Program-made: the position numbers and the translations under genes
IMG/VR virus record: IMGVR_UViG_3300034407_000002
Location: 1 to 24,360 of that record
Length of the DNA: 24,360 nucleotides
Reading direction: 5' to 3' (one strand)
From: a virus
The notes under the pieces: model-generated
What the model was told of the DNA's origin: nothing
Seen by the model: the letters and a program-made list of their open reading frames with translations, nothing else
The model's database searches: none
Shown here: positions 1-23,931 of the stretch, one piece after another
Position numbering within the stretch: position 1 is the first letter of the stretch
Layout of the letters: the number at the start of each line of letters is the position of its first letter

Positions 1-155
1 ATTGAGCCTGTAGTTGCAAGCATAATGCTTTCCATTCGTTTGACGCGACCAAACAAATCTTTGAATTGGATCTTCATTTCAGTTTGAATTGCAATTACTT
101 GCTTCTCCATGTTGTCGATCCGTTCATGCGCTGATGCTACTGTTCTTTTATCCAT
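1..155 (-). CDS. Short coiled-coil protein, 3' end outside window
   Basis: Only the first 51 codons are visible; the gene runs off the left edge. The peptide starts MDKRTVASAHERIDNMEKQV and is charged and helix-forming, with hydrophobic residues spaced as in an amphipathic or coiled-coil helix. An AAGG ribosome site lies 8 nt before the ATG, and the start is 14 nt after the stop of the tail-chaperone-like gene, so it belongs to the same operon. Small proteins of this shape at the end of a tail module often precede lysis genes, for example XhlA-like proteins with a C-terminal membrane helix. The part that would show a membrane segment is missing, so no function is assigned. It was found by reading the minus strand directly. 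Confidence 0.7.
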   Translation of the reverse strand, partial: MDKRTVASAHERIDNMEKQVIAIQTEMKIQFKDLFGRVKRMESIMLATTGS

Positions 156-169
156 TGTATTTACCTTAG

Positions 170-586
170 TTACTCAGGCTTAGTCGGCCAAGTGATGTCA
201 TGTGGAAAGCCAGCTTGATCTGTGACATTCAGCAAGTCAGTGCGATACTGTGTCCACTCAGCTTGTTTAGCTGCGGTGAGGTCTGCCCAGCGGAGGGCGT
301 TAGACACAATAGGATCAACCTCTGTAACCAAACGCCTGTCACGCTTTTCACGAACCTCTGCGGCTGCGTCTGCATCTAGCTCTGCCTGTGTGGGCGGAAC
401 ATATGCTGCGAAGTCATCACCGATCAAAGCCATGACTGCATCATTGTCAATCGTGGTGTCAGTGTCATAGTCAGTCAGCAGATAGGGTATCCAGCCGTAC
501 TCTGGATGATTAATCTCTACATCCATGATTGTGTTTGCTGCGTTCTTTGACTGTGCGTTACGCACCTCTGTAATTGTAATACTCAT
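170..586 (-). CDS. Probable phage tail assembly chaperone
   Basis: This 138-aa acidic protein resembles the phage tail assembly chaperone group found next to fibre genes. An Ala/Asp-rich linker (about residues 65-80) is followed by a basic patch, EKRDRRL. The C-terminal half then reads RWADLTAAKQAEWTQYR ... GFPHDITWPTKP, the usual pattern of a Trp-containing helix, a YR pair and a final Gly-Phe-Pro/Trp-Pro motif. Family members help fold or attach fibre or tail proteins and are usually not major virion parts. Its ATG lies 1 nt after the stop of the preceding gene, with an AAGGA site 9 nt upstream inside that gene, which suggests translational coupling. The family is recognised from the motif pattern; the exact client protein is inferred. 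Confidence 0.75.
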   Translation of the reverse strand: MSITITEVRNAQSKNAANTIMDVEINHPEYGWIPYLLTDYDTDTTIDNDAVMALIGDDFAAYVPPTQAELDADAAAEVREKRDRRLVTEVDPIVSNALRWADLTAAKQAEWTQYRTDLLNVTDQAGFPHDITWPTKPE

Positions 587-587
587 A

Positions 588-974
588 TCAAGAAATCCTT
601 ACCCACATACCTGTTGCACCGTAGCTAGTACCACTGGTACTTTGATTAGTAGAGCCGTTCATGGACCGCCAAGTACCTGACATTGTAACAGTATAATCAG
701 TATTGACCCAAGCCGAAGGCGAACGGTAGGCAAGCGAACCCAATGTATTACTAGTCGACCTCAAGCCGCTGGCCGTAGTGTTTGCTGGATAGTTAGAGTT
801 GTTTTGAGGACGACCCCATGTATAGGTGCCGACAGCGCCGAATGTTGTACTAGCACCAGCAGAAATATTCCCGCTCCCAACAATAGATGTGCCATTTACC
901 GTTCTTAAACCGCCTACGTTTGACAGGTTCCTACTGTCATCAATAACCGTAGTACCATTAACTTTAATCGCCAT
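588..974 (-). CDS. Small tail/adhesin-like protein
   Basis: This 128-aa protein is rich in Gly, Ser, Thr and Asn. It opens with MAIKVNGTTVIDDSRNLSNV, an opening I associate with tail fibre and baseplate-type proteins of marine phages, and it ends with a Trp-rich stretch (GTWRSMNGS ... GATGMWVRIS) typical of a beta-rich fibre tip. There is no signal peptide or membrane helix. An AAGGA site sits 8 nt before the ATG. It lies between a small conserved tail-region gene and the tail chaperone-like gene, so a role as an accessory fibre or host-contact protein is the best guess. Composition and context support a tail role; the specific function is not shown. Confidence 0.6.
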   Translation of the reverse strand: MAIKVNGTTVIDDSRNLSNVGGLRTVNGTSIVGSGNISAGASTTFGAVGTYTWGRPQNNSNYPANTTASGLRSTSNTLGSLAYRSPSAWVNTDYTVTMSGTWRSMNGSTNQSTSGTSYGATGMWVRIS

Positions 975-1004
975 CTTCGTGTTCCTTCACTATTAGCATT
1001 TAGA

Positions 1005-1307
1005 TTACCAAGGAACCCCAGCGGTAGTCGTTGGGTTCAACTCAGCGTTGATCTGATCTGTAATGCTTGCTTCAACATCTGTACGCACGACAGTATTCCA
1101 AACCCAAGCAAGCACGTTGGCTTGCGTTAAGTCAGCAAATGCAATGAAGTCAGAAGCAGATGCGTCCGGTGTCCATGAGGTTGTCCCGTATGAGGAAGCA
1201 GTAGCCTCCCCATCAACACCCTCGCAGCGCCAGTGTGCTACTGTCACACCGCCATCTGCTGTATTGCGCTCAAGATTTTCGATAGTCCATGTGTGTGTTA
1301 CAGCCAT
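1005..1307 (-). CDS. Conserved small tail-region protein (DUF7936-like)
   Basis: This 100-aa protein starts MAVTHTWTIENLERNTADGG. Its N-terminal half looks beta-rich (WTIENLER, TVAHWRCEG), and a C-terminal amphipathic helix holds the pattern LTQANVLAWVWNTV. Proteins with this TWTIENLER opening and WRCEG motif are common hypothetical proteins beside tail fibre genes in cyanophages and other marine phages; I recall the family as DUF7936 but could not check it. Its strong ribosome site AGGAG lies inside the last codons of the fibre gene, and its ATG is 2 nt after the fibre stop, so it is probably translated together with the fibre. Function is unknown; a structural or fibre-accessory role is inferred from position. 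Confidence 0.65.
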   Translation of the reverse strand: MAVTHTWTIENLERNTADGGVTVAHWRCEGVDGEATASSYGTTSWTPDASASDFIAFADLTQANVLAWVWNTVVRTDVEASITDQINAELNPTTTAGVPW

Positions 1308-1309
1308 AG

Positions 1310-4300
1310 TTACTCTCCTAGTTTAGCTTTAAGCTCGTCAATCTGAGCCTGTTGTTCCTTGATTGCTTCGATAAGAACAGCGACCATGTTGCCGTACTTA
1401 ACTGACTTGATACCTTCGTCATTGGTGCTGACTACATCCGGCAGAACTGCTTCCACCTCCTGAGCAATGACACCTATCTCTGAGCCACCATTCTCTAGCC
1501 AATCGAATGACACACCACGCAGGGACTTAACGGCATCCAGTGAGCCGCTGAGTGTCTCTACGTTAGTCTTGAGCGTGGCGTCTGAGGTGGTGTTGAAGTT
1601 GGCTGCGTTTACTGTGCCAGAGAAGTAAGCGTCTTTGAAGCGTTGGCTTGATATACCTAAGTCGATGGCAGCATCTCTTGCGCTGTTCGTTGAGGGATTG
1701 GCTGGGATTATTGCGTCTGAGGGTGTGTAAAACCTCAACCCCGTGTCACTAGAACCCATCTCCATGTAACCGTTTGCAGTCCCAATACTCCCCACCGTGG
1801 AGCCGTTTTTGCGGAACAATGCAATGTCACCGTCAGTACCTGTACGGTTTAAGATCATTGCTTCGTTATCTTGACGAGCCACTGATAAAAGATTGATTGA
1901 CCCTCTTACAGAAAAGCCTCCGCCAGAAGTTAAATTATGAGGCGTTGAGTTAGTAGTCCCCACCAACAGATTACCGCTGCTGTCGATGCGCATACGTTCT
2001 GCGTTTGCGGTCATGTCTTTAAACTCAAACTGACCGTCATTGCTGCTTATATTTGTGCCAATCTTGTATCGTTTTGCAGAGCCACCTTTATCATCAAAAT
2101 CAATAGAACTTTCAGTGAGGCTATCTATTTTGAGGGTGGTGGGGGTTCCACCACTGTCTAGAGTAAGGGTTGTTGTAGGCGAACTCGTGCCAATCCCGAC
2201 ATTACCGCCAAACGGCTGTAGACTAAGAGGTAAAGCACTACCCAATGTTCGGGTTGCAGCAATACCAATTGCATCATTTGCAGAAGCTACATACCCCGTG
2301 TAAAGGCCATAATCGTTTCCATGATCAACAACAAAACTTGCAGAAGCATTTGCAATAAGACCTGCATTGTTTGTTGGGGTTGAGATGCTACCACCCTTGG
2401 ACTGTAACTTAGTAGTAGGGCTTGTAGTACCAATACCCAACGACTCAGCACTCGCATCCCAGAAGAACTTAGGCGTAGTGCCTGTGTCCTCGTAGAAGCT
2501 GATGTCGCCGCCGCCAGTAATTTTCATATGAGTTTTTGGAGTTGCGGATGTGTTGGTTCTAAACTCAAAAGTCGATGCAGTGGAACCATAGGTATTATCA
2601 AATATAAACCTTGTGTTACTATCTGCTGCATATGAAATCAAACCTTGGTATGCGGAAGTTTGTCCTAATTCTATCGCCCCAGATCCGGTGTTGGCGCCAA
2701 CAACAGACCAGCCGCTAAACTTGCCTTGGGTATCCCCAGTTAAAACAGAAGTCAGCCCATCGCTGGTCAAAGTACCCGTGATGTCCAGATTGCCAGTCAT
2801 AGTATCGCCAGTCACAGCAACAAAGTCTGTGGCAGCAGAAGTGGCAGCAGTACCAAGGCCAAGGTTAGTCCGGCCAGCAGAAGCAGAGGCTAAGTCAGAC
2901 AGGTTGTTGTTAACCAGCAAAGCACCCGAAAGAGAGGCATAAGCAGCAAGCCATTGGCTGCCGTCATACACCTTCATCACATCGTCAGTCGTATTAAAAT
3001 ACAATGCTCCAGAAACTAAAGGGTTCCCGTCATTGTCTACCGTAGGATCGGAAGCCTTAGCTCCAAGATAACGATCATCGAAGTTATCCAGCGCAGCAAG
3101 AGCAGCGTCCTTAGCAGCCTCAGATGCAGAAGCAGAGTTTGCACTAGCCGTGGCCGATGCAGCCGCTTCTCCGGCTTTGGTCGTGGCTATCCCGGCCTGT
3201 GTCGTCGCCGTTGCGGCCGAGGAAGCCGCGTTAGTTTCGCTTGCCGAAGCGTTAGATTCGCTTGTGGATGCAGATGCAGCACTAGCAGCAGCATTAGTCT
3301 CAGCAGTTTCAGCATTGGTCTCAGCCGTTTCAGCAGCGGCCTGGGCGGCAACAGAAGCAACCCTAGATGTTTCACTAGCTGTGGCGCTGTTGGCGCTATT
3401 GGTGGCGCTAGTAGCAGCAGCATTTTTACTGGCCAAAGCAGATGCAGCATTTGCACTCGCGTTTTGAATGTCAGTAATATTGGTTGCGTTTGTATTGATG
3501 GATGCAATGTTTGTTGCGTTTGTGTTTACATTGGCAATGTCTGTGGCAACAGTATTTACATTCGAGATAGATCCAGCGACCGCGCCAATATCAGCGCCAT
3601 CAGCGGCGACCGTATTAATGTTTGATGTGTTACCGGCAACCGTAGTTACATTTGCGCTTATACCAGAAACAGTTGTGACATCAGAATCTATACCGGCGAC
3701 CGTGTTGATGTTTGCAGAGTTTCCAGCAACGGAGTTAATATTAGTCGTATTGCCAGCAACAGTTGTCACGTTTCCAGAGATACCGGAAACAGTGGTCACA
3801 TCTGTGCGGATCGTATTGACGTTTGTAATCGCGTCAGTTGCAACCGTACCATCCTGGATCTCTGCCAGCGTCTTAATATCAGCAGAGATATTTGCTAGTG
3901 AATCGACATCAGCAATATCTGGACCTGGCTCTGGGTCGCCTGTAGTTGCGTTGAAGCCAAGAACCGTCCCCTTACGAGCATCCTTGAGTGGCAGCTCCAG
4001 GTCAGTGAACACATCACCAGGGTTCACAAACAGGCCACGACCAAGCTTCTCATCAAGCTGTTGGGTCATAATCACGTTACTGTCTAGCTGTTCGTTTAAG
4101 CTAGAAGCCAGAAGATCCCCGGCTGTAACAAAGTCTGTGGTCCGTGAAAGCTCACGACCACCAATGATTGTAAGAACGTCAGATGCTATGAGAGCGACCG
4201 CAAGGGTGATAGACCCCGTTCCATTCGCGTTAATACTGACCGTGTAATCAGTAGTAAGCGTTAGCTCCGTAGTCCCCTTGAAGACTGCGATATCACCATC

Positions 4301-4442: not shown

Positions 4443-6908
4443 TTACTCAAACACGTTTGATAGATCTGGAGATCTTCTTGGCGTCATTTCCCCACGGCTC
4501 CACCAGTGGTTCTGACCATATTCGCGGCGGTATCTAGATTCCAGCCTGCGCTTCTTCGTTTCAAAATCAGGATCAGCCCACTTCTTTCCCTGGTCCAGAA
4601 CCATACGTTCTAAAGCAAGTCGGGAATACCATAGGGATGAACCTGGGGTATAACGTCCAGCAAAGGTAAGGAACTCAGAGGAAACATTCGTGTCCTCTCC
4701 TTTGACAGCTTGTGTAAGATTGCCGATTGTAAGCTTTCTAAAGTCATCTGCAAATCCGACAACAGGACCGGCAAAGGTTTCTGCAAGCCCACGGTCGTAT
4801 CTGTTTACATCTGAGAATAGGAAGTCTCCGTATATACCAAGCCCCCCACCCTGCATGAAAGCTGCGCCCCAAAACTCTGGGCTATCCATTGGCCTTGGAT
4901 CTCGACCCTTGCTCATTTCCTTTAGCTGCATCGCAAGAGCGCCCATTAGCGTAGTGCTGATTAGTAGATCTGCGAAGTAAGTTCCCTTTGTGCCGGTAGT
5001 TGGCTGGGCTAATCCCCGCATGATGTGTGTATTTACCAGGGTAACACCAAACCCCTTATACATGGCAAAGGATCGTGTAAGCTCACCAGCAAGCGTACCT
5101 GGGCGGGTTTCGTCTACCAAAGCAGCACGGCCCCTAATCGATGTGCTGGGGACAGCAAAGTTAGTTTCTGTTTCCACCATTACCAAAAGGCTAGTGGCTA
5201 GATCACGGGCTAGGTCTGATCGTATGTCGGTGCGCGCCTCGATGTCTTCAGCTCTGAGGAATGAAGCACCCTCATATTCATAAAGAGGAGTTGCTCTTAC
5301 AATCTCCCAGCGATCTGCATTAATGTTGTAGTGATCTAATGTTTTACGCATCATCGGATCTAGCTGGTCAAACGTCTTGCCTGCGTTATCTGCAAGATTA
5401 CCCAGGAACTCCATTCCAAACGCCCACTTGCCAGCGTTGGTCCAAGGGGAGAGCAATGAAGCCCTCATCACAAAGTCGGCTACTCGCCTGGTAACTTCTG
5501 GTCCAGATAGGTCTCCCACATAGCGCATCTGAGCGGCAGCGAGAGTTGACCAACCTTCAGCGGTAAGGCCCAACCTGACTGCAAGCTTACCCTTTTCCTC
5601 TAGGGATAGCGGGTTCATAAACTTTAAATAGTTCTGGACCATTTTAGTTTGAGGCAAACCAACCATTGTTCGAGCAATACGGCCAAAATTCATATCAGTT
5701 ATGGCAGAGATAGCAGCAGCACCTAGCTGTGCTGATTGCAATACCTGTCGAATCCCTGCAAAACTGTAAGCTATACGGCTATCAACAGGAGCATTGATGT
5801 TTCCGTTTACGTTTGAGTACAGGGTATCTATGGCTGTACTCGACCTACGAGCAGCATTTTCTGCGGCTTGATCTCCAGCAGCATCCTTCTGCAAAGTCTG
5901 TTTTACAAAATTCACAGTGGCATTTGGGTTAGGTCCAAGAACTTCCATCAAAGCAATGTCGCGAGACATCGTATCGATATGGCCCATCATCGCATCAAAA
6001 GCATTTGGATTGCCAAATTTCTCTTGGTACTCCATCCAGGCATCTGCATTTTTAAATACAAAGAATCGATGGTCCTGATTGCGCAACGCAAGCGACTTGT
6101 TTCCAACCATAGATCCAGGCTTCAGTTTGTTAAAGCCATCTGTAACTATAGTTTCGTGAGCATCTCTGAGCGCAATTTCTAATTTCTCAGGAGAAAACTT
6201 TAAACCCGTTTGCTCATCTATCATCTTGTTCAAGTCTAGCCGGGTGCGAATAAACTCATTCCACTCATCATAACTTGATTGACGCACCCTCATTGTGTCG
6301 TGCATCTGAGGCATACCCCAATCAGCTCTTTTAGGAATTGATCCGCCAGCAGCGTTGAACCTGGTGCGCAAATATTCAGCAGAAGCCTTCCAAGCCTGGG
6401 CCATCTCACGGGCAGCAGGACTGTCTGTTGATCCCTCGCTGAACACCTCGCGAACCATATCTTTTAGATCGGCTTTATTCCTTGTCTGTCCAATGACATT
6501 ACGCCGAAACGTAGCTAAGAAATCATCGAGCTTGCGCGTGGCGCTTCTAGTAACGGCTTGCTGCACCTGGGCAACGCTATTAAATTTAGAGGTTTCGTCC
6601 TGTTCAAACAAAGCTTTTGCGGCGATGCTTTTGTCTGTCCGTCCTGTAATCGTGCGATAATTATTTAGATCGTTGTTGATTCGTTGCCAGGTAACAGCTT
6701 GAAGCATAGCGCGTCTCTTGCGCTCAGTTGCTATCTTCCTTGCAGCGGCAGTTGTTTCCGTAGCAGCCCTAGCTGTCGCGGCAGCAGAACCCATTTGCCT
6801 GTTGTATTTAACCTCAAGCTCGTCAAACAATCCAAGGATCTCATCAGCCTTTTCTTGAGAGATCTGCCCTTCAGCAACACCGTCATTGATACAGTTTTTA
6901 AAAGTCAT
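4443..6908 (-). CDS. Large internal virion protein (821 aa)
   Basis: This 821-aa protein is the last of a run of four probable internal (ejection) proteins and sits just before the fibre gene, the place of gp16 in T7. The N-terminal 250 residues are helical and charged. A stretch about residues 185-205 (RFNAAGGSIPKRADWGMPQ) is one I recognise from large phage virion proteins. Residues 645-698 hold a hydrophobic helix (FADLLISTTLMGALAMQL) followed by KGRDPRPMDSPEFWGAAFM and a GGGLGIYGDF turn, like C-terminal domains of large polyvalent-type phage proteins. No murein transglycosylase or lysozyme motif was seen. It starts in a 4-nt ATGA overlap with the stop of the 1076-aa gene. The likely role is DNA ejection or membrane passage, inferred from position and composition. 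Confidence 0.75.
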   Translation of the reverse strand: MTFKNCINDGVAEGQISQEKADEILGLFDELEVKYNRQMGSAAATARAATETTAAARKIATERKRRAMLQAVTWQRINNDLNNYRTITGRTDKSIAAKALFEQDETSKFNSVAQVQQAVTRSATRKLDDFLATFRRNVIGQTRNKADLKDMVREVFSEGSTDSPAAREMAQAWKASAEYLRTRFNAAGGSIPKRADWGMPQMHDTMRVRQSSYDEWNEFIRTRLDLNKMIDEQTGLKFSPEKLEIALRDAHETIVTDGFNKLKPGSMVGNKSLALRNQDHRFFVFKNADAWMEYQEKFGNPNAFDAMMGHIDTMSRDIALMEVLGPNPNATVNFVKQTLQKDAAGDQAAENAARRSSTAIDTLYSNVNGNINAPVDSRIAYSFAGIRQVLQSAQLGAAAISAITDMNFGRIARTMVGLPQTKMVQNYLKFMNPLSLEEKGKLAVRLGLTAEGWSTLAAAQMRYVGDLSGPEVTRRVADFVMRASLLSPWTNAGKWAFGMEFLGNLADNAGKTFDQLDPMMRKTLDHYNINADRWEIVRATPLYEYEGASFLRAEDIEARTDIRSDLARDLATSLLVMVETETNFAVPSTSIRGRAALVDETRPGTLAGELTRSFAMYKGFGVTLVNTHIMRGLAQPTTGTKGTYFADLLISTTLMGALAMQLKEMSKGRDPRPMDSPEFWGAAFMQGGGLGIYGDFLFSDVNRYDRGLAETFAGPVVGFADDFRKLTIGNLTQAVKGEDTNVSSEFLTFAGRYTPGSSLWYSRLALERMVLDQGKKWADPDFETKKRRLESRYRREYGQNHWWSRGEMTPRRSPDLSNVFE

Positions 6909-9900
6909 ATTGTGCAGAACTCCAATCGAGCAATCATTGCATCCTCGCTATCCATCTCACTTTTAAGATCTCGCAGCGTCACAGTAGTGGATTCAACCAA
7001 GCCAGTTTCTTCATTAAGCCGCTGCCCAATTGGAACTTCAAGATCCATGTCTGCGTCAGCTAAAGCTTCTGTTTGGATAAGATCCTCTGCACCCTCGCGC
7101 TCTGCGCTTCTGATAGCGTCTGGTCTTGTTCGTCCACCCGGAGGTACATCGAAGCTAGATCCGAGTAACGGGTTTTCTCCTGAGATTTCTCTGACGGTTT
7201 TAGGTTCATTGAAGCCACCGTTGTTGTCAATTTCTGCATAGCCATCTGCCACGCCCTCCTGTTTTAATGTTTTGTAAGTAGCTGAAGGATTAGACCCAAC
7301 CCGATCAAGGTACTCTGGGGGAATAATTCTTCCGGTAGACACAAATCGCCGGATCATACGTTGAAAAGCGTTCTCAGGATTTACGTCCATATTTACAAGA
7401 CGAACTTTGTAACCCTTATTCTTATATAGCGATATCACATCACGAATACTAGAGGCTGAATGACCTACTTTTGGCAGCACAATATTTGTGCCACGCTCTA
7501 TCATTAATGCTTGCAATTCTTTTGCTAAATTAGAGCTTTCCTCATGCACAGCAGAAGCCCCAACGCCACCTTCATATTCTGGCAAAGTCTTTTTGATCTC
7601 GTCACTATCGAGGATTGCAGACCTGTTAGATATGGCTAACTCATTTGCTATGGTGCTTTTACCAGCAGCCGGGGGACCAAGAACTATAGTAAGTTCTTTG
7701 TTTGCCAATACTGGCTCAACATCTAAATTTAACTCTTTAAATGCCAAAGCTTCAGCGTCACGCTCGAACCGAAGCATAGCTTCATCCGTAGAAACAACAT
7801 CCTCACCGTTTATTTTGTAGACGCGAGAATTGTGCCAATCATCTGAATCATAGCCATCAATCTTAACGGTATCTGGCCTAGACGCAATTTCATCTAAGGC
7901 CGACAAAACAGATGGATGATTGTCTATCTGTTCTCTCGTTGGGTTCTGGTCCAGCAATCTGCTGAGATCTTGCAAGCTACCAGGCTCAATCTCATCAGCA
8001 CCAAACATATCGGCAATAAGCTGATCTGCCTGCCGTTCCGAAGCTACGCCTGACGGCTCATCGAATCCTTCGAGGGCTGGCTCGTCTGTAACTTGAGATC
8101 TAGTGATCTCCGGCGCACCATCGACAGCGCGTCCAATGTCGCCAGTAGATACGCGGTCGAAGTCGCCCGATTCAATTGCTCCTCTGACAGCATCGAGGAA
8201 TCCACCTGTTGCTGCGACATAGCTGTTTGTGTCTCTGGCTGTTCTTGCTGCATCATTGAGGGCGTCTGAGAGCGGCCCTTTGCGGTTTGCAAGCGTTTGG
8301 AGGAGCGCGATCGTTTGGGCATCTGTATTCGCCTTTCTTTGGTTTACGTCCTTTACAAGAACATTTCCTTCTGCCTCTAATCTCTCAGAGTTTCTTACAA
8401 GGGTTTCAAATGCTGCCTTGTCACGGCGCAATTCTTTATAAGCCCGGTCCAGAACTTTAGCACGTTCCACATAAAGGCTTTCAGTTACCAGCTCTTCACC
8501 AAACAATGAGATCTGTTCTACCTGGTCGGCATCTGATTCGCGTACCTGACGAACAATAGCCTCTGCCTGGAAAGCATTGCTGGGATCTGCCTTAGCCAAA
8601 ACCTCAATAGCTGCGTCCTGGAGACCTTCATCATCGATCAGCCGACCCACAATCGCACCGTAGTTTGGCGGCACAACTCCGTTTACAACAGCACCAAACG
8701 CAGTATCACTTAGGCCCATCATGTCCCTGGCTTGCCGTACAAGCTCAGAACGTGGCGGAAGCTCAGATATGCGACTAGGATCTACCCTGAGAACCTTTGC
8801 TGCGTCTATGGACGTTCCTGTGCCTTCTGCGATGTTCTTCATTGCCGCGATTACACGGGCCTCTGGTGGCGTTATGCCATCTGTCTCACGAAGCTTGTAA
8901 GCAAATACCCGGATATCCTGAGAAGGATCTTGTGAACGTATGCGCTTTGCCAAACCAAGGCGCTGGTGTCCATCTGCAATAGCCATCCGGCCATCAGCAT
9001 ATTCATAAACAGTAACAGTACCGGCCTTGTACTTATCCCAGGTAGTAATCCCCTGGAGACGCTCAGTCACACCGAACTCATCTCCGCCCTCTTTAAACTG
9101 GAATGTCTTGGCATCCACCTCAATATCCATTGGGTCAAGATCGTAAATGACGCCATCTAGGTTATCTACCGATCTTTGCGCAGCCTGGGGACTAATTGGC
9201 GAAGTTGGCTCACTTGGAATGCGAGGTATTTCGCCCTGCCGTACAGCAGCACTAGCATCTGACAGTCGTGCCTCATGTTCAAATTCAGCCTCAATGCTGT
9301 TAGGAGACTGTAAAGGGTTCGAGGATTCAATGTCAGCTTGGTTGTCTAACGCATCAACTATAGCTTGGTCTTCTATATCCAAAGGCTTTTGCAATTTGTT
9401 CTTGAGAACATTCCAGCCTTTGAGACCCTGCTCTCCGGTCATTCTTATAGCTGCACCAGCAGCAGGCATAGCCGCGCCGAATGCAGCTTGCATACCTACG
9501 TTTTTAATAAAGTCCTCATAACTGTACTCTAATCCAAGTTCGTCATACCATTCCTTAACATCAAGCTCTGTTATAGCACCAGCACCAGCGTTCACAGCCG
9601 CGCTTTGCGCTATGTTTTTCCAAAGAGTTTTGGACCAACCTCCAAATGGCATCGTGTAAAGTGTGACAGGATCTCCAAATCCAGTACCCATTCCTCCAAC
9701 GAATCTTGCTGCACCCCTGATAAAGCCAGGGTTATTTCTTACAAGCTCCGCCATTTCCGCTTCTTTGTTTTCAACAAAGCTTTTCATGGTATCGTCTAAG
9801 AATTGAGGGTTTACTTTTTTCAGTTCAACGGGAAGCCAATCGCTATTCTGTTCAATATAAGAATAGATCTCTTCGGTCTTTGCTCTGTATCTTGTAGGCG

Positions 9901-10135
9901 AATTTTCAAACAACCAAATTGCTGGATTTTCAAATTCATTACCAGTCGAATTAAGCTCTTCAACAATTGGAGACCAAACATCAAGCAACGTAAAGTTCTT
10001 ACTGTTAGAACCAGTGCCGCCCGTGTATTTCGTGGCATCAAAAGCCCCTGTCAAATTCTCCGTAATAGAATTAGGTGCTTGAGATATTCCGTTTTGAGGA
10101 AGGAAATCTAAGGAATCTGGTTTGTCAAAGTTCAT
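6905..10135 (-). CDS. Polyvalent internal virion protein with ParB-like and zeta-toxin kinase domains
   Basis: This 1076-aa protein joins a virion-type N-terminus to two enzyme-like domains. Residues 1-250 include Gly/Ala-rich, possibly membrane-active segments (GAARFVGGMGTGFGDP). Residues 330-450 look ParB/sulfiredoxin-like, with ADGHQRLGLAKRI at 387-399 in the place of the ParB phosphate-binding motif, followed by helices. Residues 811-965 look like a zeta-toxin/PezT kinase: Walker A GPPAAGKST (820-828, Lys826), a DSDEIKKTLPEY block with Asp843, a HEES helix at 864-867, and Arg926/929/930/936 where the family has its lid arginines. Zeta kinases phosphorylate UDP-N-acetylglucosamine and block wall synthesis; no epsilon/PezA antitoxin is visible nearby. 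It overlaps both neighbours by ATGA. Entry into the cell with the DNA is inferred from its place among ejection proteins. Confidence 0.8.
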   Translation of the reverse strand: MNFDKPDSLDFLPQNGISQAPNSITENLTGAFDATKYTGGTGSNSKNFTLLDVWSPIVEELNSTGNEFENPAIWLFENSPTRYRAKTEEIYSYIEQNSDWLPVELKKVNPQFLDDTMKSFVENKEAEMAELVRNNPGFIRGAARFVGGMGTGFGDPVTLYTMPFGGWSKTLWKNIAQSAAVNAGAGAITELDVKEWYDELGLEYSYEDFIKNVGMQAAFGAAMPAAGAAIRMTGEQGLKGWNVLKNKLQKPLDIEDQAIVDALDNQADIESSNPLQSPNSIEAEFEHEARLSDASAAVRQGEIPRIPSEPTSPISPQAAQRSVDNLDGVIYDLDPMDIEVDAKTFQFKEGGDEFGVTERLQGITTWDKYKAGTVTVYEYADGRMAIADGHQRLGLAKRIRSQDPSQDIRVFAYKLRETDGITPPEARVIAAMKNIAEGTGTSIDAAKVLRVDPSRISELPPRSELVRQARDMMGLSDTAFGAVVNGVVPPNYGAIVGRLIDDEGLQDAAIEVLAKADPSNAFQAEAIVRQVRESDADQVEQISLFGEELVTESLYVERAKVLDRAYKELRRDKAAFETLVRNSERLEAEGNVLVKDVNQRKANTDAQTIALLQTLANRKGPLSDALNDAARTARDTNSYVAATGGFLDAVRGAIESGDFDRVSTGDIGRAVDGAPEITRSQVTDEPALEGFDEPSGVASERQADQLIADMFGADEIEPGSLQDLSRLLDQNPTREQIDNHPSVLSALDEIASRPDTVKIDGYDSDDWHNSRVYKINGEDVVSTDEAMLRFERDAEALAFKELNLDVEPVLANKELTIVLGPPAAGKSTIANELAISNRSAILDSDEIKKTLPEYEGGVGASAVHEESSNLAKELQALMIERGTNIVLPKVGHSASSIRDVISLYKNKGYKVRLVNMDVNPENAFQRMIRRFVSTGRIIPPEYLDRVGSNPSATYKTLKQEGVADGYAEIDNNGGFNEPKTVREISGENPLLGSSFDVPPGGRTRPDAIRSAEREGAEDLIQTEALADADMDLEVPIGQRLNEETGLVESTTVTLRDLKSEMDSEDAMIARLEFCTI

Positions 10136-12669
10136 TGGACGGCCTCAATTAACTTCAGAATATCAAACCTAAAAGGTGCGCCACTTAAATCAGTAACATA
10201 TTTCGGCTCACCGTACTGAGTGGAGCCAAAAGTAATACCGGCCAGATTGCCGCCCAGAGAAAGAACCTGCCAGTCATTTTTAGTATTTATTATTCCGTCA
10301 CCATTTACTGAACTCAAAATACCCGCATCTACGACCTGATTGCTTGCTGCATATGCGGAGCTAAAATCAATATTGTTTAATGCGTTTTCTATAGCTTCAG
10401 CACTAACACCGGCAGGCAAAAGAGTATTCTTTCCGCGAACTTCTTGAATGCCGCCAACAGAAACCCCGTCAGAAGACTTCATTCCAGAAGCCATTTCAAT
10501 TGACTCTCTCCATAAGTCTGCGGAAAACTTATCTTGGCCCTGAGAAATATCAGCGTAAATCAGTTTTGCAGTTTCCTGTATTACTCTTTTGGTATTAGGT
10601 GCAAACTTCAAAGCCTCATCTGTTAGTTCTAAAAATATAGATTCTGTGTTTGCGGGAGTAAAATCATTTATCTTGTTGCCAGCTTTTAAATACTCAAGAC
10701 CCCGAAGCGCAAAGTTGGCGGCGCTCATATTTTCTTCATTTACCAAAGCGCCGATACCAGCGAACTCTGGGGAAGAGCTAGATATTTCTGAAAGCATCTG
10801 TGGAACCGCTGGACCTCCTCCTTCGACAATACTGCCGAGGAAAGACATCAATTTAGACCTATCTGTCTGGGGCGATTTTAAAAACTCTGTAAGAAGATCT
10901 CTTTCTTGAGCAGTGAAAAATTTAGGCTCTATGCCATACTTAGATGCAATTACCTGAGCATCATAAACACGCTTTTGAACATTGGCGACAACATCCGGGT
11001 TTTGTGCAGTCGGATTTATAGTCGAGATTTGTATCTGATTATTATTAGTATCCTTAACCCCAACATTCATAGCGAAAGTTAATGGATCATTTGCAAGCTG
11101 AGTCTCCATGTTGCTCAACATTTTTTCAGCAAGATTCAATTGTTTTAGCTCAATAGATGTATCAACCCCCTCTGCACGGAGACCCGACATATAATCAGCA
11201 ATCTCTTTTGGGGTATATGACTGCAATATTGATCCAAGTTCGCCGGTTTCTAATAAAGTTCCAAGCTCCCCTTCCAGATCTCCACGCAAATTGGGTGGGA
11301 TTTCAGTAAGCCTTTGCACAAGACTCGCCATGTCTTCAGGATTTACGGCTATACCTTTGTCAACGATATCTTGGAATGTAGTCACATCGCTTGATAAAGC
11401 ATCAACAATTGGCTGGAACTCTGCTTTTTCTGCATCAGACGCAGCCTTAATAGCTGCTTTAGCGGCTGTTAAATAAGCTTGAGCAACCTGCAATGTTTCA
11501 GCTTCTAGTAAGGTGTCAATGCCAGCTCCACCCAATCCCTGTATCCCAGACTTGAGAGTTTCAACTTCATTATAAAGATCTTCGGCAGTCATGGATCTAT
11601 ATACAGATGCGTTTTCGGCGTTAAACTCTAAGTCTGCAATAGCAAGCCTTGCTGCGGCTCCTTGATCCCCCAGGGCATCTGCGCGCTGCTTCAGAGTAGC
11701 AATTTGTTTTTCAGAAGGCATCCCACCCAAAGCAAGAACTCTCTCCAGTTCTGCGACTTCCGATACAACAGCGTTATTCTCACCCTTGGTTACGGCAAGA
11801 GCAGAATTGTAATCTGCTTTGAGCGATTTTCTAACACCTTGAGTTTGAGATAACGTCATACCAGGGAGAGCCTCTGTCTCCATAACCTTGAGCATTTCCT
11901 GCTTTTCTTCAAGTGAAGCAGTGTTAAATTCATACACTAGCTTTTCTTTGTAAGCAGCATTGTAAACATTCTCTGCAAATTCAGCGGCTTGCAGCTCTGT
12001 GGCGCCAAGCCCGATTTGAAGCTCCGTTTCAACAGCGATCTTTTTGTTTATTTCCTCCATCGTCATACCAGGGAGAATGGCCGATTCTAATACGCTCTTT
12101 GCTCCACGTTCAGCAGCATTCGATCTTTTTACAGCCTGCTTTTGAGCCTGCAATTTAACATAATAATTAGAATACTTTTCAGTTGCCGTAGCAGCAGCAC
12201 CTTGCAAATTAACCTTTAAGACAGAAGATGCTGCTGGATCTATTACCCTGAGAGACTCAGAATAACCGTCCGTTACGTCTGCAAGCTGTGATTGAATGAC
12301 TGAGAAGGGAGTTTCGTTTTTTTCACCGTCAGTCAAAATACGGGAGATCTCAATCTCAGCAGTATTCTGAATTTCAGCAACAGCAACGCGACTTCCAAGC
12401 TCATACGCCGCACGATCAGCAATGGTAAACGCACCACCCTTTTCATCAATAGCCTCTAGTGTTGAGACCGCGCCCTCTTCCTGCACTCGCTCTTGACCGC
12501 GAATTGTAGCAGCCCTGGCAGCTTCCTTAAAAGCAAATTCAGACATACGATTAAGTTGCTGAGAAAGGTTTTGAGAATACCTCGCTTGTTCCCGCGTATC
12601 AGCGAAATCAATGCTACCTGGTTGACGAGTTCTTACACCTAGTCGCTGATATCGTGGGAGCTGTGCCAT
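10132..12669 (-). CDS. Internal virion protein, T7 gp15-like position
   Basis: This 845-aa protein is predicted to be mostly helical and is rich in Ala, Glu, Leu and Gln. It starts MAQLPRYQRLGVRTRQPGS and soon enters a long helix (about residues 25-60, ARYSQNLSQQLNRMSEF). The pattern and length match the large helical ejection proteins of podoviruses; T7 gp15 is somewhat shorter. Such proteins are stored in the capsid above the portal and help form the channel that carries DNA into the cell. No enzymatic motif was seen. The ATG follows an AGG-containing ribosome site, 13 nt after the 152-aa gene, and the stop overlaps the next start as ATGA. The assignment rests on gene order, size and composition, since sequence similarity in this family is weak. 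Confidence 0.75.
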   Translation of the reverse strand: MAQLPRYQRLGVRTRQPGSIDFADTREQARYSQNLSQQLNRMSEFAFKEAARAATIRGQERVQEEGAVSTLEAIDEKGGAFTIADRAAYELGSRVAVAEIQNTAEIEISRILTDGEKNETPFSVIQSQLADVTDGYSESLRVIDPAASSVLKVNLQGAAATATEKYSNYYVKLQAQKQAVKRSNAAERGAKSVLESAILPGMTMEEINKKIAVETELQIGLGATELQAAEFAENVYNAAYKEKLVYEFNTASLEEKQEMLKVMETEALPGMTLSQTQGVRKSLKADYNSALAVTKGENNAVVSEVAELERVLALGGMPSEKQIATLKQRADALGDQGAAARLAIADLEFNAENASVYRSMTAEDLYNEVETLKSGIQGLGGAGIDTLLEAETLQVAQAYLTAAKAAIKAASDAEKAEFQPIVDALSSDVTTFQDIVDKGIAVNPEDMASLVQRLTEIPPNLRGDLEGELGTLLETGELGSILQSYTPKEIADYMSGLRAEGVDTSIELKQLNLAEKMLSNMETQLANDPLTFAMNVGVKDTNNNQIQISTINPTAQNPDVVANVQKRVYDAQVIASKYGIEPKFFTAQERDLLTEFLKSPQTDRSKLMSFLGSIVEGGGPAVPQMLSEISSSSPEFAGIGALVNEENMSAANFALRGLEYLKAGNKINDFTPANTESIFLELTDEALKFAPNTKRVIQETAKLIYADISQGQDKFSADLWRESIEMASGMKSSDGVSVGGIQEVRGKNTLLPAGVSAEAIENALNNIDFSSAYAASNQVVDAGILSSVNGDGIINTKNDWQVLSLGGNLAGITFGSTQYGEPKYVTDLSGAPFRFDILKLIEAVQ

Positions 12670-12682
12670 TCTTTAACCTAAC

Positions 12683-13141
12683 CTATGATAGTTGACCGGC
12701 CATGTAAGCCGCTTCGCCAATACTTGCAGCCGCGCTTACATTTGCACTTAGCTGGGCTGTTCGACCAGCAGACCTGTATATTCCAGCCTGTTGTGTTGCC
12801 TCACCTAGAGCAAGAGCCGCGTTGTCCTGGGCAATCGCAGCCTCTCTGCTACCCTCAGACAAAGCAAACATCTGCATAGTTGCCGCCGATCCAGATGTAG
12901 GATCTACCCCACCAGCACCGGCACGGGCAATAATTGCAGACAATGTTTCATTCAAGTTCTGCAAAGCATCAGCGCCCTGCTGCTTATAAGCAATGGCTTC
13001 TGAACGGCCCTTTAACTCAGCAGCCTGAGCTTGCTGTTCATAACTGGCCCGTTGCGCAGCACCGACATCTCTCTGCGCACTAGCCGCAGCAAGCTTACTT
13101 CCTACTGATACTATCGGGCCTATTACTGACATTGCTTCCAT
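12683..13141 (-). CDS. Small internal virion protein, T7 gp14-like
   Basis: This 152-aa Ala/Gln/Ser-rich protein begins MEAMSVIGPIVSVGSKLAAA, with a short hydrophobic segment near residues 4-20. Long helices follow, including the AYKQQGADALQNLNETL stretch and an ARAGAGGVDPTSGSA turn, both familiar from podovirus gp14-type proteins. In T7, gp14 is ejected first and inserts in the outer membrane. It lies directly after tail tubular protein B and before the large internal proteins, the order seen in T7. A GGGAG ribosome site is placed 7 nt before the ATG and overlaps the end of the upstream gene. The role is inferred from composition and order. Confidence 0.75.
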   Translation of the reverse strand: MEAMSVIGPIVSVGSKLAAASAQRDVGAAQRASYEQQAQAAELKGRSEAIAYKQQGADALQNLNETLSAIIARAGAGGVDPTSGSAATMQMFALSEGSREAAIAQDNAALALGEATQQAGIYRSAGRTAQLSANVSAAASIGEAAYMAGQLS

Positions 13142-13144
13142 GTC

Positions 13145-15343
13145 TTAACTCCCTACGCTCAACCGGTACTCAAGACCGAGAACAATCATTTCCAACGGAA
13201 CATTTTGACTAATCGTAATCTGCCCCGTTCCACTATACCCCAGCAAGCCATGCACAGTTTTTATGCCAGTGAAAGGCTCAACGGGCGAATCTAACACATC
13301 TTCGCCAAAGTTTCTAAACGAGATCTGCTTGCCGTTAATCGTCATATCCTTCGTGCTGTTCACAATAGCATCAACCTGGATAATACGTTTCTTAAAGCCC
13401 TGCACAGATCCAGAAGATAGCACCGGCTCCGCAGGCATTGTCCTAGCTGTGACCGTGTAATTCAAACCAACCTGGTAGCTAGACGTAGCAGCAGAAGCAA
13501 ACGTAACTGTGTAAGGAGATCCTGGGACAGTCTGTTCTGGCTCTAGAACGCCATCTCTAATGATCTGGACTGTCTCCCCCTCAAGATGCTGTAACGTCAC
13601 TGAGGACGCCGCTCCGCCCTCCTTAGAGCTATCTAGCGTAAGATCTGGGTCAAACTTCTCCAGCATATAGTTGTCAGTGCCATCAATGGTCCGTTTAACG
13701 ATCACATAAACATCTGCAACCTCAACGCCCACAGCTATAAACTCACCGTCTGTTGTGAACCGGCTTGGAGCAATAACATTCTGACCGACCAGGATAGAGT
13801 AAACCGCCATCGATCCGTCAGTACCGTTAACCACAAACAGGCGATCCGATTCATCTGTAGACGCAGCCCTACGCGCCGCCATGTCCACAGGATCTTTTAG
13901 CAAGTGAGAGCTTAGAGCTGATATGTTCTGTACCTGATAGGATGCTGTAGTATCGCCAAACTGGAAGACGTTGATAGATTTACCCTGGCGCTGAATAAAG
14001 ATTGACGCGCCGTTCAGCTCTTCTATTGGAATACCAGACTTTGATCCAAGCCGTGTCTGTGGCCGTACAAAGAAAGTCGAAGGAGTAATTGGCTCATTGG
14101 TCCCTTGTAGGATTACAAACTCACCACCGGTTGTGAAGATCCGAAAGTCGTTGCCAGAGAACAAGTTGACAATAGTATTGAGCTGATTGGTGTTGATCGT
14201 TGCCTCAACGCTCTCATCGTCAAGTCCAGTACCGGCGTTGAAATCAAAGTAATTGATTACACCAGAACCCCAGATGGTATTTGGCCGAGACTTAGATCCA
14301 CCAAAATACAACCGGCCCTCATGGAATGCAGCAGACCGAGGCCAGCCGCGAGTGCTGGACCAAACATCTTCGTAACCATGTTCGCTTTCCCAGAAACCAG
14401 CAGTAACAGCATCGGTATCAAAGAAATCAACCTCTGTAACGGCCTTCATTACCGTGTCAGAAACATACTCTACATACCGAGCGCGACCAAAAGTGCTTGT
14501 GACTTGAGCGTATTCACCGACAGCGGCCTCTGCAAATGCAGAAACCTTATAGCCAGTGGTGTTATCGGGAGCCGTATCCCATGCGGGATAGACAGTCAGA
14601 ACCTTGGTGGAAGCTACATAGTCCTCAACGTGCCGCGTCTGTCCAGATCCAGTACCAGAAGTTAAAGTAATAAACATACCGTTTGGTTGATCGTCAGCGG
14701 TGTAGCTTGTTGCTGCCTTGAGAGTAATCGTGTTTGAGCTTCCAGCCTGTGCCGTACCGTTGTCAGTAGTCATTGACGAAGCTGTGATCGTAATGTTTCC
14801 AGTTGTGGCGCTGGGCGTGATCGTAAAGTCTGGCTGATGCGTGTCAAAGGCATAAGCATACTGAGGAAGATTTGTCAGAGGCAAGTTCTCTAGCGTCCAG
14901 CTTGTGTCACTGTTGCGCACAAGCCTCTTGGTTTGGAGATCCTCATGGCAGAGAATGAGCGTATCAACCGCCTGGGTATAGTTGATATCATCCAGCATAG
15001 CGGTAGTGATATCGGTTGCTGTAATATAGTCATTGCCAGATCCGTTGATATTGGTCTGCAAGACACCAGCCTTAAACACATAGATCCTCTGAGTGACAAA
15101 CACCAAGAGGTAACTATCATCAACGCTAAACTCAAAGGGGATTACTTTGAAGTCAGTAAAACTTGATCCAAAGTCATAGATAAACTTCGTACCATCCCGG
15201 CGCTTGAACCCACCCTGCGGCTGAATGATTACATTCGTAGCTTCCTCAAGAGCGTTCTGATATTGCTGCAAGTCGGTACGAGCGCGGATAAGCGGATCAA
15301 GCTCACCAACCGAGAAGTTCGTTTGGAACTGCATAATCCGCAT
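13145..15343 (-). CDS. Tail tubular protein B (nozzle), T7 gp12-like
   Basis: This 732-aa protein should form the tail nozzle below tail tubular protein A. The opening MQFQTNFSVGELDPLIRART, the basic GGFKRRDGTKFI segment (about residues 45-55) and the WPRSAAFHEGRLYFGGS motif (about residue 335) are recognisable features of gp12-type nozzle proteins. The body is beta-rich, with an insert at about 170-265 that looks like an added Ig-like or jelly-roll domain. The annotated ATG gives MRIMQF; a second ATG three codons later is also possible. The start lies one base after the TAA of the upstream gene. The neighbouring gp11-like and gp14-like genes support the call. Confidence 0.88.
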   Translation of the reverse strand: MRIMQFQTNFSVGELDPLIRARTDLQQYQNALEEATNVIIQPQGGFKRRDGTKFIYDFGSSFTDFKVIPFEFSVDDSYLLVFVTQRIYVFKAGVLQTNINGSGNDYITATDITTAMLDDINYTQAVDTLILCHEDLQTKRLVRNSDTSWTLENLPLTNLPQYAYAFDTHQPDFTITPSATTGNITITASSMTTDNGTAQAGSSNTITLKAATSYTADDQPNGMFITLTSGTGSGQTRHVEDYVASTKVLTVYPAWDTAPDNTTGYKVSAFAEAAVGEYAQVTSTFGRARYVEYVSDTVMKAVTEVDFFDTDAVTAGFWESEHGYEDVWSSTRGWPRSAAFHEGRLYFGGSKSRPNTIWGSGVINYFDFNAGTGLDDESVEATINTNQLNTIVNLFSGNDFRIFTTGGEFVILQGTNEPITPSTFFVRPQTRLGSKSGIPIEELNGASIFIQRQGKSINVFQFGDTTASYQVQNISALSSHLLKDPVDMAARRAASTDESDRLFVVNGTDGSMAVYSILVGQNVIAPSRFTTDGEFIAVGVEVADVYVIVKRTIDGTDNYMLEKFDPDLTLDSSKEGGAASSVTLQHLEGETVQIIRDGVLEPEQTVPGSPYTVTFASAATSSYQVGLNYTVTARTMPAEPVLSSGSVQGFKKRIIQVDAIVNSTKDMTINGKQISFRNFGEDVLDSPVEPFTGIKTVHGLLGYSGTGQITISQNVPLEMIVLGLEYRLSVGS

Positions 15344-15344: not shown

Positions 15345-15962
15345 TTAGTATCTCACATCAATAAGAGAATAATCCTCAATGATCTGCGGCGGCTTACCGC
15401 GACTATCTATGTTCATTGCCTCACGCATCAAGCCACCACGGTTTGACTCACCGGGTGAGCCATATGCCAAGGCCCGAAAGTAGTCTGACTTGCTAATCTG
15501 ATCGGTAATTGTAAAGGCTAACTCAGCAGCCAGTGAGGTGCGGAGAAGGCGCACAAAGTAATTTGGCATTTTGCTTTCATCAACCGTACCTTGGTAGTCG
15601 ATAAAGACCTTCTCAAAATTTGTGTATAGCTGATCGCCGTAAACTTCCCACCCGTACCGGACAGGGTTTTCGCCAATACCAGCGCTTGTAAATAAGGCTA
15701 AGACGCCGGAGAGCATATCTCCTGGCATTTGATAGGCATACTTCCACTCATCGATAGGAGCAGTAGACAGCCGATTTAGCTGCACCTTTTTAACGCTCCA
15801 ACTCCATTGATAGTTTGAAAGCAGCGAGTCACGGAGATCTGGATAAAGTCGATCACAAGCCTGGGCTGAATCAGATCCTTCTGTAAAAGAAGAAATGGGC
15901 GCAGCGCCCAACAATATCAGAGCATCCGAGCAGATCGAGAGTGAGGTATCACCAGCAGCCAT
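15345..15962 (-). CDS. Tail tubular protein A (head-tail adaptor), T7 gp11-like
   Basis: This 205-aa protein shows the adaptor-family layout: an N-terminal ICSDALILLGAAPISSF segment, the ACDRLYPDLRDSLLSNYQWSW block (about residues 35-56), a YAYQMPGDML turn near residue 76, and a C-terminal helix region. The protein forms a ring between portal and nozzle. A GGAG ribosome site sits 7 nt before the ATG, just after a stem-loop that separates this gene from the head genes. It is followed after one base by tail tubular protein B, so the pair is very likely co-translated. Length is close to that of T7 gp11. Confidence 0.88.
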   Translation of the reverse strand: MAAGDTSLSICSDALILLGAAPISSFTEGSDSAQACDRLYPDLRDSLLSNYQWSWSVKKVQLNRLSTAPIDEWKYAYQMPGDMLSGVLALFTSAGIGENPVRYGWEVYGDQLYTNFEKVFIDYQGTVDESKMPNYFVRLLRTSLAAELAFTITDQISKSDYFRALAYGSPGESNRGGLMREAMNIDSRGKPPQIIEDYSLIDVRY

Positions 15963-16266: not shown

Positions 16267-17100
16267 TTATTCAGTGCAAGAAATTTTGACAATGCCTTCG
16301 CCGTCAATTGAGACGGAACCAGCAGAGAACATGGAGCTAACCAAGAACGATGTCTTTTCTGGGACATAGTTGACTTCGGTTTTCTGAGCCATCGACTCAG
16401 CATAGCCCATCGAATCTTTGTGCCAGGCAAAGCAAGTACGAGTAGAAGGCTTAGGAATGCCGCCTTCGTCACGGTCGCCCATTGTCAAGATATTGAAGCC
16501 CATGAATGTGTTGATCTCACCTTGGACAAGAGCTTTGACAGAAGCAAAGTCTTGGCTTGTGATTTCAGTTTCACCGAGCAAAGCATCGAGCTGAGAAGCG
16601 TGCATGAGCAAGTTACGGCCTTCAGAAGGTACGTTCTTCTCATTCATAGCTTTCGCAGTAGCGCGGAGCTTTTCGATGTTCATGTTTGTGCCAGCACCAC
16701 CAATGCTTGTTGCAACAGTAGATGTGCCAGTGGCCGCGTTCAGAGCATCGATCATGATCTGGTCCATGCGCCGAGCAATAGACTTAGATACAACCTGTAC
16801 CAATTCAGAACGCTCATCAAAGTTGATGTGGGACTGTTGGAAGATGTCTGAGTATTCTGCTGCAATGTAGTCTTCCATTGTCGCAGTTACTTGGCCGTAT
16901 GTGACGTTAAGTGGAGTAACATCGGTTTGCGGTACGCGAAGCGTAGCTACACCTTTACCGATTGTTGGGAACTTAACAGTGTTACCGGCAACGCCGGTGC
17001 GGGTCCGCATTGTGCCACGAAGCACAGATTCGGCTTGATACGCTTGTTTGACCTCAGAATCGAAAAGATCAACAAACGCGGTTGAGACGTTAATCGCCAT
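16267..17100 (-). CDS. Major capsid protein
   Basis: This 277-aa protein builds the icosahedral shell and is expected to have the HK97 fold. The sequence AINVSTAFVDLFDSEVKQAY leads into an N-arm. A VLRGTMRTRTGVAGNTVKFP beta segment follows, then a helical spine (VSKSIARRMDQIMIDALN, about residues 104-121), an E-loop/P-domain region and a C-terminal beta block ending GIVKISCTE. A longer frame opens at 17127, but the start was set at 17100 because a near-perfect AAGGAGGT site lies exactly 8 nt before this ATG. It is shorter than T7 gp10. It follows the scaffold gene after a 172-nt structured leader and precedes the decoration-like gene. No slippery heptamer for a gp10B-type frameshift was found near the stop. 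Confidence 0.9.
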   Translation of the reverse strand: MAINVSTAFVDLFDSEVKQAYQAESVLRGTMRTRTGVAGNTVKFPTIGKGVATLRVPQTDVTPLNVTYGQVTATMEDYIAAEYSDIFQQSHINFDERSELVQVVSKSIARRMDQIMIDALNAATGTSTVATSIGGAGTNMNIEKLRATAKAMNEKNVPSEGRNLLMHASQLDALLGETEITSQDFASVKALVQGEINTFMGFNILTMGDRDEGGIPKPSTRTCFAWHKDSMGYAESMAQKTEVNYVPEKTSFLVSSMFSAGSVSIDGEGIVKISCTE

Positions 17101-17108
17101 TTGCAAAA

Positions 17109-17116
17109 ACCTCCTT
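17109..17116 (-). promoter_or_regulatory. Strong Shine-Dalgarno site of the capsid gene
   Basis: The minus strand reads AAGGAGGT, nearly fully complementary to the 16S rRNA end, with an 8-nt spacer to the ATG at 17100. It is among the strongest ribosome sites in the window. It fixes the capsid start and fits the need for many copies of this protein. A 6-bp hairpin ends 2 nt upstream. Confidence 0.85.
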
Positions 17117-17118
17117 TT

Positions 17119-17253
17119 GCGTTTCAATTAAACGCTTCCGTTATCCGAGGTTCCGGGCGGTCGCTTGCGCGTTATGGCCGCGCCAACCAGTAGATTACTA
17201 CATCTAACGGGCCGAGCACGGTTAGCCGTTAAGGCTAAAATACACGCAAGCGA
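17119..17253 (-). promoter_or_regulatory. Structured RNA leader upstream of capsid gene
   Basis: The 172-nt gap between scaffold and capsid genes holds no reading frame but several inverted repeats in the transcript sense. A 9-bp outer stem pairs 17245-17253 (UCGCUUGCG) with 17161-17169 (CGCAAGCGA). Inside it are three hairpins: a 6-bp hairpin at 17222-17238 (UUAGCC/GGCUAA), a small CCG/CGG hairpin at 17212-17221, and an interrupted stem at 17187-17210 built on UAGAU/AUCUA. Outside it, a 6-bp hairpin (GCGUUU/AAACGC, 17119-17135) abuts the ribosome site. It is not a tRNA, as it lacks a T-arm motif. Control of capsid expression, transcript processing or a packaging-related role are possible; none is shown. 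Confidence 0.45.
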
Positions 17254-23774: not shown

Positions 23775-23931
23775 AAGACTTCTTCATCCGCGTCTTGGCA
23801 GCCTTGCGAAAAGCAGCGTCACTAGGAGCGCCCTTGCTACCAGGCTTCCGCATCTTCTCGCCAGAGCCCTCAGCAATACGCTTCTTCTTAGCGTGGATGT
23901 TCGCATATAATCCTGGTTTCTTGTTTGGCAT
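23767..23931 (-). CDS. Tiny basic conserved protein (DUF5872-like)
   Basis: This 54-aa protein reads MPNKKPGLYANIHAKKKRIA, then EGSGEKMRKPGSKGAPSDAA and a basic tail. The KKPGLYANIHAK/KRIxxGSGEKMRKPGxxGAP pattern is one of the most recurrent tiny-protein signatures in phages; I recall it as a DUF5872-type family but could not check. Function is unknown, and the strong positive charge suggests DNA or RNA contact. A GAAAGGG ribosome-like site precedes the ATG by 7 nt. The stop overlaps the next start. It was found by direct reading and is supported by its familiar motif, which makes it more certain than its length suggests. Confidence 0.75.
   Translation of the reverse strand: MPNKKPGLYANIHAKKKRIAEGSGEKMRKPGSKGAPSDAAFRKAAKTRMKKSYG

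Follow-up and report, generated by a model that had tools for sequence, protein, structure and literature searches.

The 24,360-nucleotide (nt) stretch of viral DNA analysed here, positions 1-24,360 of IMG/VR record IMGVR_UViG_3300034407_000002 and called the window over its whole length, encodes a protein of 1076 amino acids (aa) in which one internal segment has been exchanged repeatedly between nearly identical phages. The protein is probably a polyvalent protein of the ejection type, built of a constant chassis and one swappable enzyme slot, whose cargo would act early in the host cell. A preliminary description of the same DNA had proposed a virion-ejected polyvalent protein with a ParB-like and a zeta-toxin kinase domain. 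Its observation is confirmed and its interpretation as a whole is partly supported; it missed that the kinase is one allele of a slot that elsewhere holds a synthetase-type domain or a third domain, or is empty.

The open reading frame (ORF) described there at 6905-10135 is real, as judged from its minus-strand frame and its 4-nt overlap with each neighbour, an 845-aa gene before it and an 821-aa gene after it. A plus-strand reading of the same interval was ruled out, because it is full of stops and contains no long frame. The protein is organised as follows:

6905..10135, minus strand: polyvalent protein, 1076 aa, ATG start; ORF at the position of a P22/epsilon15 gp16-type ejection protein
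9161..10135, minus strand: N-terminal constant region, residues 1-325, kept in all close relatives
8054..9160, minus strand: putative ParB/Noc-like chassis, residues 326-694, then a helical region (alignment invariants, AlphaFold, Foldseek, phrog_10691 E 5e-69)
7051..7990, minus strand: cargo cassette, residues ~716-1028 (blastn of the window against L004; empty alleles L040 and L043)
7217..7699, minus strand: predicted zeta-toxin-like P-loop kinase, residues 813-973, with K826, D845, H864-E-E-S, P888, R930 and R936 (Pfam, PDB profile, motifs)
6908..7048, minus strand: constant C-terminal tail, residues 1030-1076, MDLEVPIGQRL...RDLKSEMDSEDAMIARLEFCTI (tail pattern across allele types)

Exchange of the cargo cassette

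One main segment of the protein varies among relatives in IMG/VR: apart from it, ten close relatives can be aligned over their full length, and it is bounded by the motifs MFGADE (residue ~715) and MDLEVP (residue 1030). The slot between them contains the zeta domain in the window and in L001, L002, L003 and L006, different content in L004, L005 and L007, and a third kind in L009/L010. At the DNA level, the window and L004 are 97.4% identical by blastn over 8.0 kb and, beyond the cassette, 95.9% identical over 3.4 kb, with no DNA similarity across the 940 nt in between (829 nt in L004). The same arrangement is found in L030 (zeta) and L033 (third type), which share 95.9-97.2% before the cassette and 99.7% over 2962 nt after it, and in L046 (zeta) and L047 (synthetase type), with flanks of 98.8% and 98.5%. 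The boundaries are the same and in-frame across exchanged alleles in many independent samples. Empty alleles also occur: L034 and L049 are the empty counterparts of L035 and L046, respectively, the empty L043 reads ...EPGSLQDL-IQTEALADADMDLE..., joining both ends of the cassette of the window, and the slot is also empty in SI2, a cultured phage. The persistence of such alleles indicates that the cargo is not needed for a structural role.

A wider search yielded 80 loci, and 71 rows with a readable slot, the window and the phage-record rows included, were classified by profile. The zeta domain and the second, synthetase type are found in 27 rows each, the third type in 4, an empty slot in 12 and other content in 1; zeta and synthetase never stand together in the slot (0/71). 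Cargo type, mapped on a ParB-region tree, needs at least 19 changes (20 with an outlier), far more than the minimum of 4 but below the number needed when labels are shuffled (mean 34). The ParB region of the window is 100% identical to that of L016, yet the cargo of the latter differs. The ratio of nonsynonymous to synonymous substitution rates (dN/dS) is ~0.05-0.13 in most diverged pairs of the zeta, second-type and ParB segments, with higher values in one synthetase pair and several near-saturated pairs and an uninformative one in the near-identical pair of the window and L001; between the zeta domain of the window and moderately diverged homologues it is 0.08-0.11. The cassettes are thus under purifying selection, and this, together with the repeated exchange, suggests that the cargo is useful and contested. 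The DNA of the zeta cassette had no match in plasmids.

Besides the cassette, the largest divergent block is the tail-fibre region (window 1-3636; comparisons with L004 over the shared 20 kb and with contig G001). Methylophilales phage MEP301 (L120), the nearest cultured relative by terminase (68%), encodes the recombination proteins YqaJ, ERF and RusA as gp05, gp06 and gp51, and ORFs at 8032-8757 and 11216-11632 of contig G002 are similar by eye to MEP301 recombination genes. Proteins of this kind are a possible engine for cassette exchange.

The zeta-like kinase and the alternative cargoes

The zeta kinase domain of the preliminary description is borne out by profile searches. Pfam Zeta_toxin (PF06414) matches residues 813-973 with E 7.6e-20 and 71.6 bits, against a curated cut-off of 22.3, and a profile of 16 related domains searched against the PDB retrieves the pSM19035 zeta toxin (1gvn, E 2.9e-9) and PezT (2p5t, E 3e-6). 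Also among these matches are AvrRxo1 and Pnkp1, related kinases with other acceptors, the former described as making 3'-NADP (PMC5087710). The motifs are GPPAAGKST at 820-828 (containing Lys826), DSDEIKK at 843-849, VHEESS at 863-868, RMIRRF at 926-931 and STGRIIPP at 933-940. The Walker A segment, the HEES helix and the lid arginines lie where they had been placed before; Asp843 had been named there, but alignment to the solved zeta structure pairs the catalytic Asp67 of zeta with Asp845, the second D of DSD.

Residues K46, D67, E116, R158 and R171 of zeta are essential for its toxicity and ATPase activity (PMC6356619), and T118, R120, T128 and E100 contact UDP-N-acetylglucosamine (UDP-GlcNAc; PMC3062530). 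The equivalents of K46, D67, R158 and R171 are present as K826, D845, R930 and R936, the last assigned by family alignment, since the hidden Markov model match to 1gvn stops before it. The position of Glu116 is occupied by Pro888, a proline that is invariant in the 16/16 aligned family members, and those of Thr118 and Arg120 by Val890 and His892 in the window. By sequence, the domain is a zeta-superfamily kinase, for which UDP-GlcNAc kinase activity is not claimed; it looks like a working P-loop kinase with an acceptor other than UDP-GlcNAc. The earlier proposal of activity on UDP-GlcNAc is therefore not supported, given these three positions. The general idea of a delivered effector is strengthened and that of an enzyme halting wall growth is weakened, because the kinase is only one of several alleles of a cassette that can be exchanged.

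Regarding the second-type cassette, no Pfam match was found, and its profile searched against the PDB retrieves Tas1, a type VI secretion (p)ppApp synthetase (6ox6), with E 2e-18. An AlphaFold model (predicted local distance difference test, pLDDT, 76.7) gives Tas1 as the best Foldseek match (E 2.9e-8), followed by small alarmone synthetases and CapRel. A D-x-x-R motif and a catalytic-type Glu are kept, columns D89, R92 and E144 being invariant. The cassette is thus a predicted alarmone-synthetase-type enzyme, RelA/SpoT-like in sequence and in modelled fold; tblastn found no match for it in phage records. The third type (L009/L033/L036) has no PDB profile match, and Pfam gives no match for the alternative cassettes; a resemblance of the third type to nucleotidyltransferases was seen by eye only, and it is left without assignment.

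Further weak matches lie next to the cassettes. In L085:1962-3557 the zeta cassette is followed by a match to ART-PolyVal, an ADP-ribosyltransferase (ART) family, with E 1.7e-5, below the Pfam cut-off. In L068:5081-7069 a match to GNAT acetyltransferases (E 0.0072) precedes the synthetase-type cassette, and a second ParB-like segment is visible by eye; L031, L038 and L064 look similar.

Constant regions and the virion module

The N-terminal region, Gly/Ala-rich around residues 140-230, is presumed from gene position to be the channel or virion part. In the ParB-like segment the motif D388-G-H-Q-R392 is invariant in 33/33 aligned sequences, R392 corresponding to the active-site Arg position of the ParB/Srx fold. 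The preliminary description of this segment holds at the level of fold: Pfam ParB profiles give no match, whereas a Foldseek search with an AlphaFold model of residues 326-694 (33 sequences, mean pLDDT 75.7) retrieves Noc/ParB structures with probability 1.00 and a best E of 3.6e-4. With modest template modelling scores, 0.26 by query and 0.39 by target, the model supports membership of the ParB/Noc fold family rather than a close relationship. The alignment of ~220 columns extends beyond the nucleotide-binding fold and reaches the helical DNA-binding region, and matches in a viral structure library are proteins named 'large polyvalent protein associated domain'. Most likely, the modelled segment is a putative nucleotide- or DNA-binding element of the chassis. 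A PDB profile search of this region had returned polyubiquitin repeat artefacts only, and the fold search was used instead. The C-terminal tail pattern is retained in complete alleles of all four kinds (zeta, synthetase, third type and empty) and is possibly a packaging or assembly signal. A second variable site is located near residue 320, where L009/L010, L033 and L038 have an extra ~90-100 aa right before the ParB-like part.

The window is the structural half of a marine, short-tailed podovirus, with the following genes around the 1076-aa protein:

4443..6908, minus strand: 821-aa virion structural protein, downstream (phrog_684, E 1.5e-175); its start overlaps the stop of the cargo gene
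10132..12669, minus strand: 845-aa protein, upstream, at a gp15-like position by gene order
12683..13141, minus strand: gp14-like internal virion protein (phrog_418 'internal virion protein', E 1.2e-8)
13145-15343 and 15345-15962: tail tubular proteins, structural module (Pfam/PHROGs)
16267-17127: major head protein, structural module (Pfam/PHROGs)
18281-19843: head-tail connector (E 4.6e-99)
21413-22948: terminase, structural module (Pfam/PHROGs)

Homologues of the 821-aa protein are found in 112 phage records, epsilon15-type Uetakevirus among them, while the 845-aa protein has no PHROGs match and no Pfam match above cut-off. In the Uetakevirus SPN1S, the equivalent place between two large virion genes is taken by a 600-aa protein (SPN1S_0018), whose C-terminal end resembles the constant tail of the window by eye, with no significant phmmer match. 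Gene 8 of SI2 is a homologue of the 1076-aa protein (E 1e-81 over residues 130-660). In epsilon15 and P22 the corresponding operon contains ejection proteins (review PMC8954989). The gene order and these parallels place the 1076-aa gene in the ejection-protein position, and its gene position and relatives suggest that the product would be packaged and ejected. This agrees with the earlier view of a polyvalent protein, here with ParB-like and zeta-like domains, among internal virion genes. A fusion of the 1076-aa and 821-aa proteins in Prochlorococcus P-SCSP1 phages was considered and dropped, as the 821-aa protein has no match to their 2571-aa protein.

A 95-aa ORF at 23888-24175 of the window (minus strand), which starts MGSQTIL.SMVRAHSESGCIK, is almost unchanged in the distant contig G002 (13572-13859). 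No Rfam or tRNA match was found in this region; possibly, the frame is spurious and a conserved DNA or RNA element underlies it.

Immunity, rival explanations and proposed role

As noted in the preliminary description, no antitoxin is visible: no epsilon/PezA-type gene lies next to the cargo gene, both neighbours being large virion-module genes that overlap it by 4 nt. The neighbours overlap the cargo gene and lie outside the exchanged segment, so the cassette does not bring a cognate immunity gene with it. Among 16 contigs, which may be fragments, no integrase was found in 15 and one in the remaining contig, and none contained a small alarmone hydrolase (HD_4) above cut-off that could serve as immunity. 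Relatives in bacterial genomes are mostly alphaproteobacterial. The slot is empty in seven prophage-like loci (Aurantimonas, Stappia, Pleomorphomonas, Aureimonas and others), and the synthetase type is seen by eye in a Bradyrhizobium locus and in a contig of a flavobacterial metagenome-assembled genome. An immunity-free cargo tolerated mainly by cell-killing phages fits these data, although it is not proven by them.

Polyvalent proteins are multi-domain phage proteins proposed to enter the host early, for which ParB-like, RelA/SpoT, ART and zeta-like kinase domains have been listed and domain mosaicism has been seen in Helicobacter prophages (Iyer et al. 2017, PMC5512222). The protein described here likewise joins several effector-type domains in one large chain, ParB and zeta in the window and a synthetase or a weak ART match in relatives. 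It differs in that one defined slot of a constant ejection-position protein is swapped between nearly identical phages, whereas in that survey zeta is assigned to conjugative elements and to fusions with MuF. MuF polymorphic toxins (PMC5576092; Apk2, PMC12226406) also combine a virion chassis with variable toxins, RelA-like (p)ppApp synthetases included, but these are C-terminal, belong to temperate phages and are followed in 89.4% by a small ORF of putative immunity. The cargo of the window is internal, followed by a constant tail, with no adjacent immunity gene and no integrase in 15/16 contigs; no MuF domain was matched by Pfam at E 0.1 in the protein, and a downstream immunity ORF of MuF style is absent, the next gene encoding the 821-aa virion protein. 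Gene 114 of halovirus HCTV-5 (zeta toxin and ParB nuclease) has the same two domain types in one chain and a similar style of motif, DExKKPIPEYDG...VHDEAS, but it belongs to an archaeal tailed virus, with zeta before ParB and another chassis. The zeta and PezT toxins (1gvn, 2p5t) share the P-loop kinase family and the Lys46, Asp67, Arg158 and Arg171 equivalents with the window, which, unlike them, has neither the E116, T118 and R120 equivalents nor an epsilon antitoxin, and in which the kinase forms part of a large phage protein. Tas1/Apk1 (6ox6), the top match by profile and fold of the alternative cassette of the relatives and not of the window's own, is a type VI secretion effector with an immunity protein, whereas that cassette is phage-borne, with no immunity gene found. 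No description was found in the literature searched of a single slot in the middle of a podovirus ejection-position protein that is swapped at precise boundaries between near-identical phages and has no linked immunity; on variable domains of internal virion proteins, the literature search yielded nothing but antibody papers without relation to the subject.

Several points weigh against a delivered, early-acting cargo. Packaging and host entry are argued from gene position and relatives, the cassette comparisons rest on metagenome contigs, and a late function of the chassis in the producer cell is conceivable. Moreover, the kinase has no equivalents of zeta E116, T118 and R120, and it could be inactive on UDP-GlcNAc or act on another substrate. 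Late action of the cargo in the producing cell, either preceding packaging or with no packaging at all, for instance in shutting down host metabolism or excluding competing phages, would suit a gene of the structural module, which is probably expressed late, and the lack of an adjacent antitoxin; we consider it rather unlikely, as the cargo is fused inside an ejection-position virion protein, the constant tail is kept in empty alleles and translation as one chain implies co-packaging. Canonical zeta action, suggested also for polyvalent zeta domains (PMC5512222), is unlikely. In it, the ejected kinase would phosphorylate UDP-GlcNAc and block wall synthesis, in line with the Zeta_toxin match above the curated cut-off, with zeta as the best PDB profile match and PezT among the best, and with the retained Lys46, Asp67, Arg158 and Arg171 equivalents. 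However, the essential Glu116 (PMC6356619) is replaced by Pro in the family, the UDP-GlcNAc contacts T118 and R120 (PMC3062530) are Val and His in the window, and the kinase is exchanged for an enzyme of the alarmone-synthetase type rather than for one of wall synthesis.

Although the loss of the E116, T118 and R120 equivalents might also be expected of an enzyme-derived structural or spacer domain that is no longer active, such an origin of the cassette is very unlikely: the Walker A, DxD and H..ES motifs are retained along with the lid arginines, the synthetase alleles keep the invariant D89, R92 and E144 columns, dN/dS is low, and the empty alleles show that the protein can do without a spacer. 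Chimeras joining unrelated cassettes to the same backbone were considered as well, the close relatives all being metagenome contigs; an assembly artefact of this kind is hardly credible given the same in-frame boundaries in many independent samples, the many separate switches, the conserved tail, flanks that are both 96-99% identical in the closest pairs, and the empty form in cultured SI2.

In the delivered-effector reading, which we prefer, the 1076-aa protein would be synthesised late and packaged with the head core, and it would enter the host whole, before the DNA or together with it. Its ParB-like part would remain with the arriving DNA or at the inner membrane, while the cargo enzyme, in the cytoplasm, would use ATP to modify a nucleotide or nucleotide-sugar pool and disable a host process or a defence signal within the first minutes. 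A more specific form is put forward tentatively: podoviruses, probably virulent, may have in their ejection protein a polymorphic effector slot that comes without immunity genes. In it, chemically different enzymes that use ATP, a zeta-like kinase with a substrate other than UDP-GlcNAc and an alarmone synthetase, would replace each other by cassette exchange because they serve the same early task, for example poisoning a host nucleotide pool or a nucleotide defence signal.

If this is right, kinase, synthetase and empty alleles would form natural pairs on almost identical phages, and what else phages inject along with their DNA, and how the injected enzymes act, would become directly testable. 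It would also point to a branch of the zeta family whose substrate may differ from the known one, and to a polymorphic-toxin logic in phages that need no immunity, the producing cell dying anyway. The exchange described here suggests a rapidly evolving weapon, passed on with no antidote linked to it.

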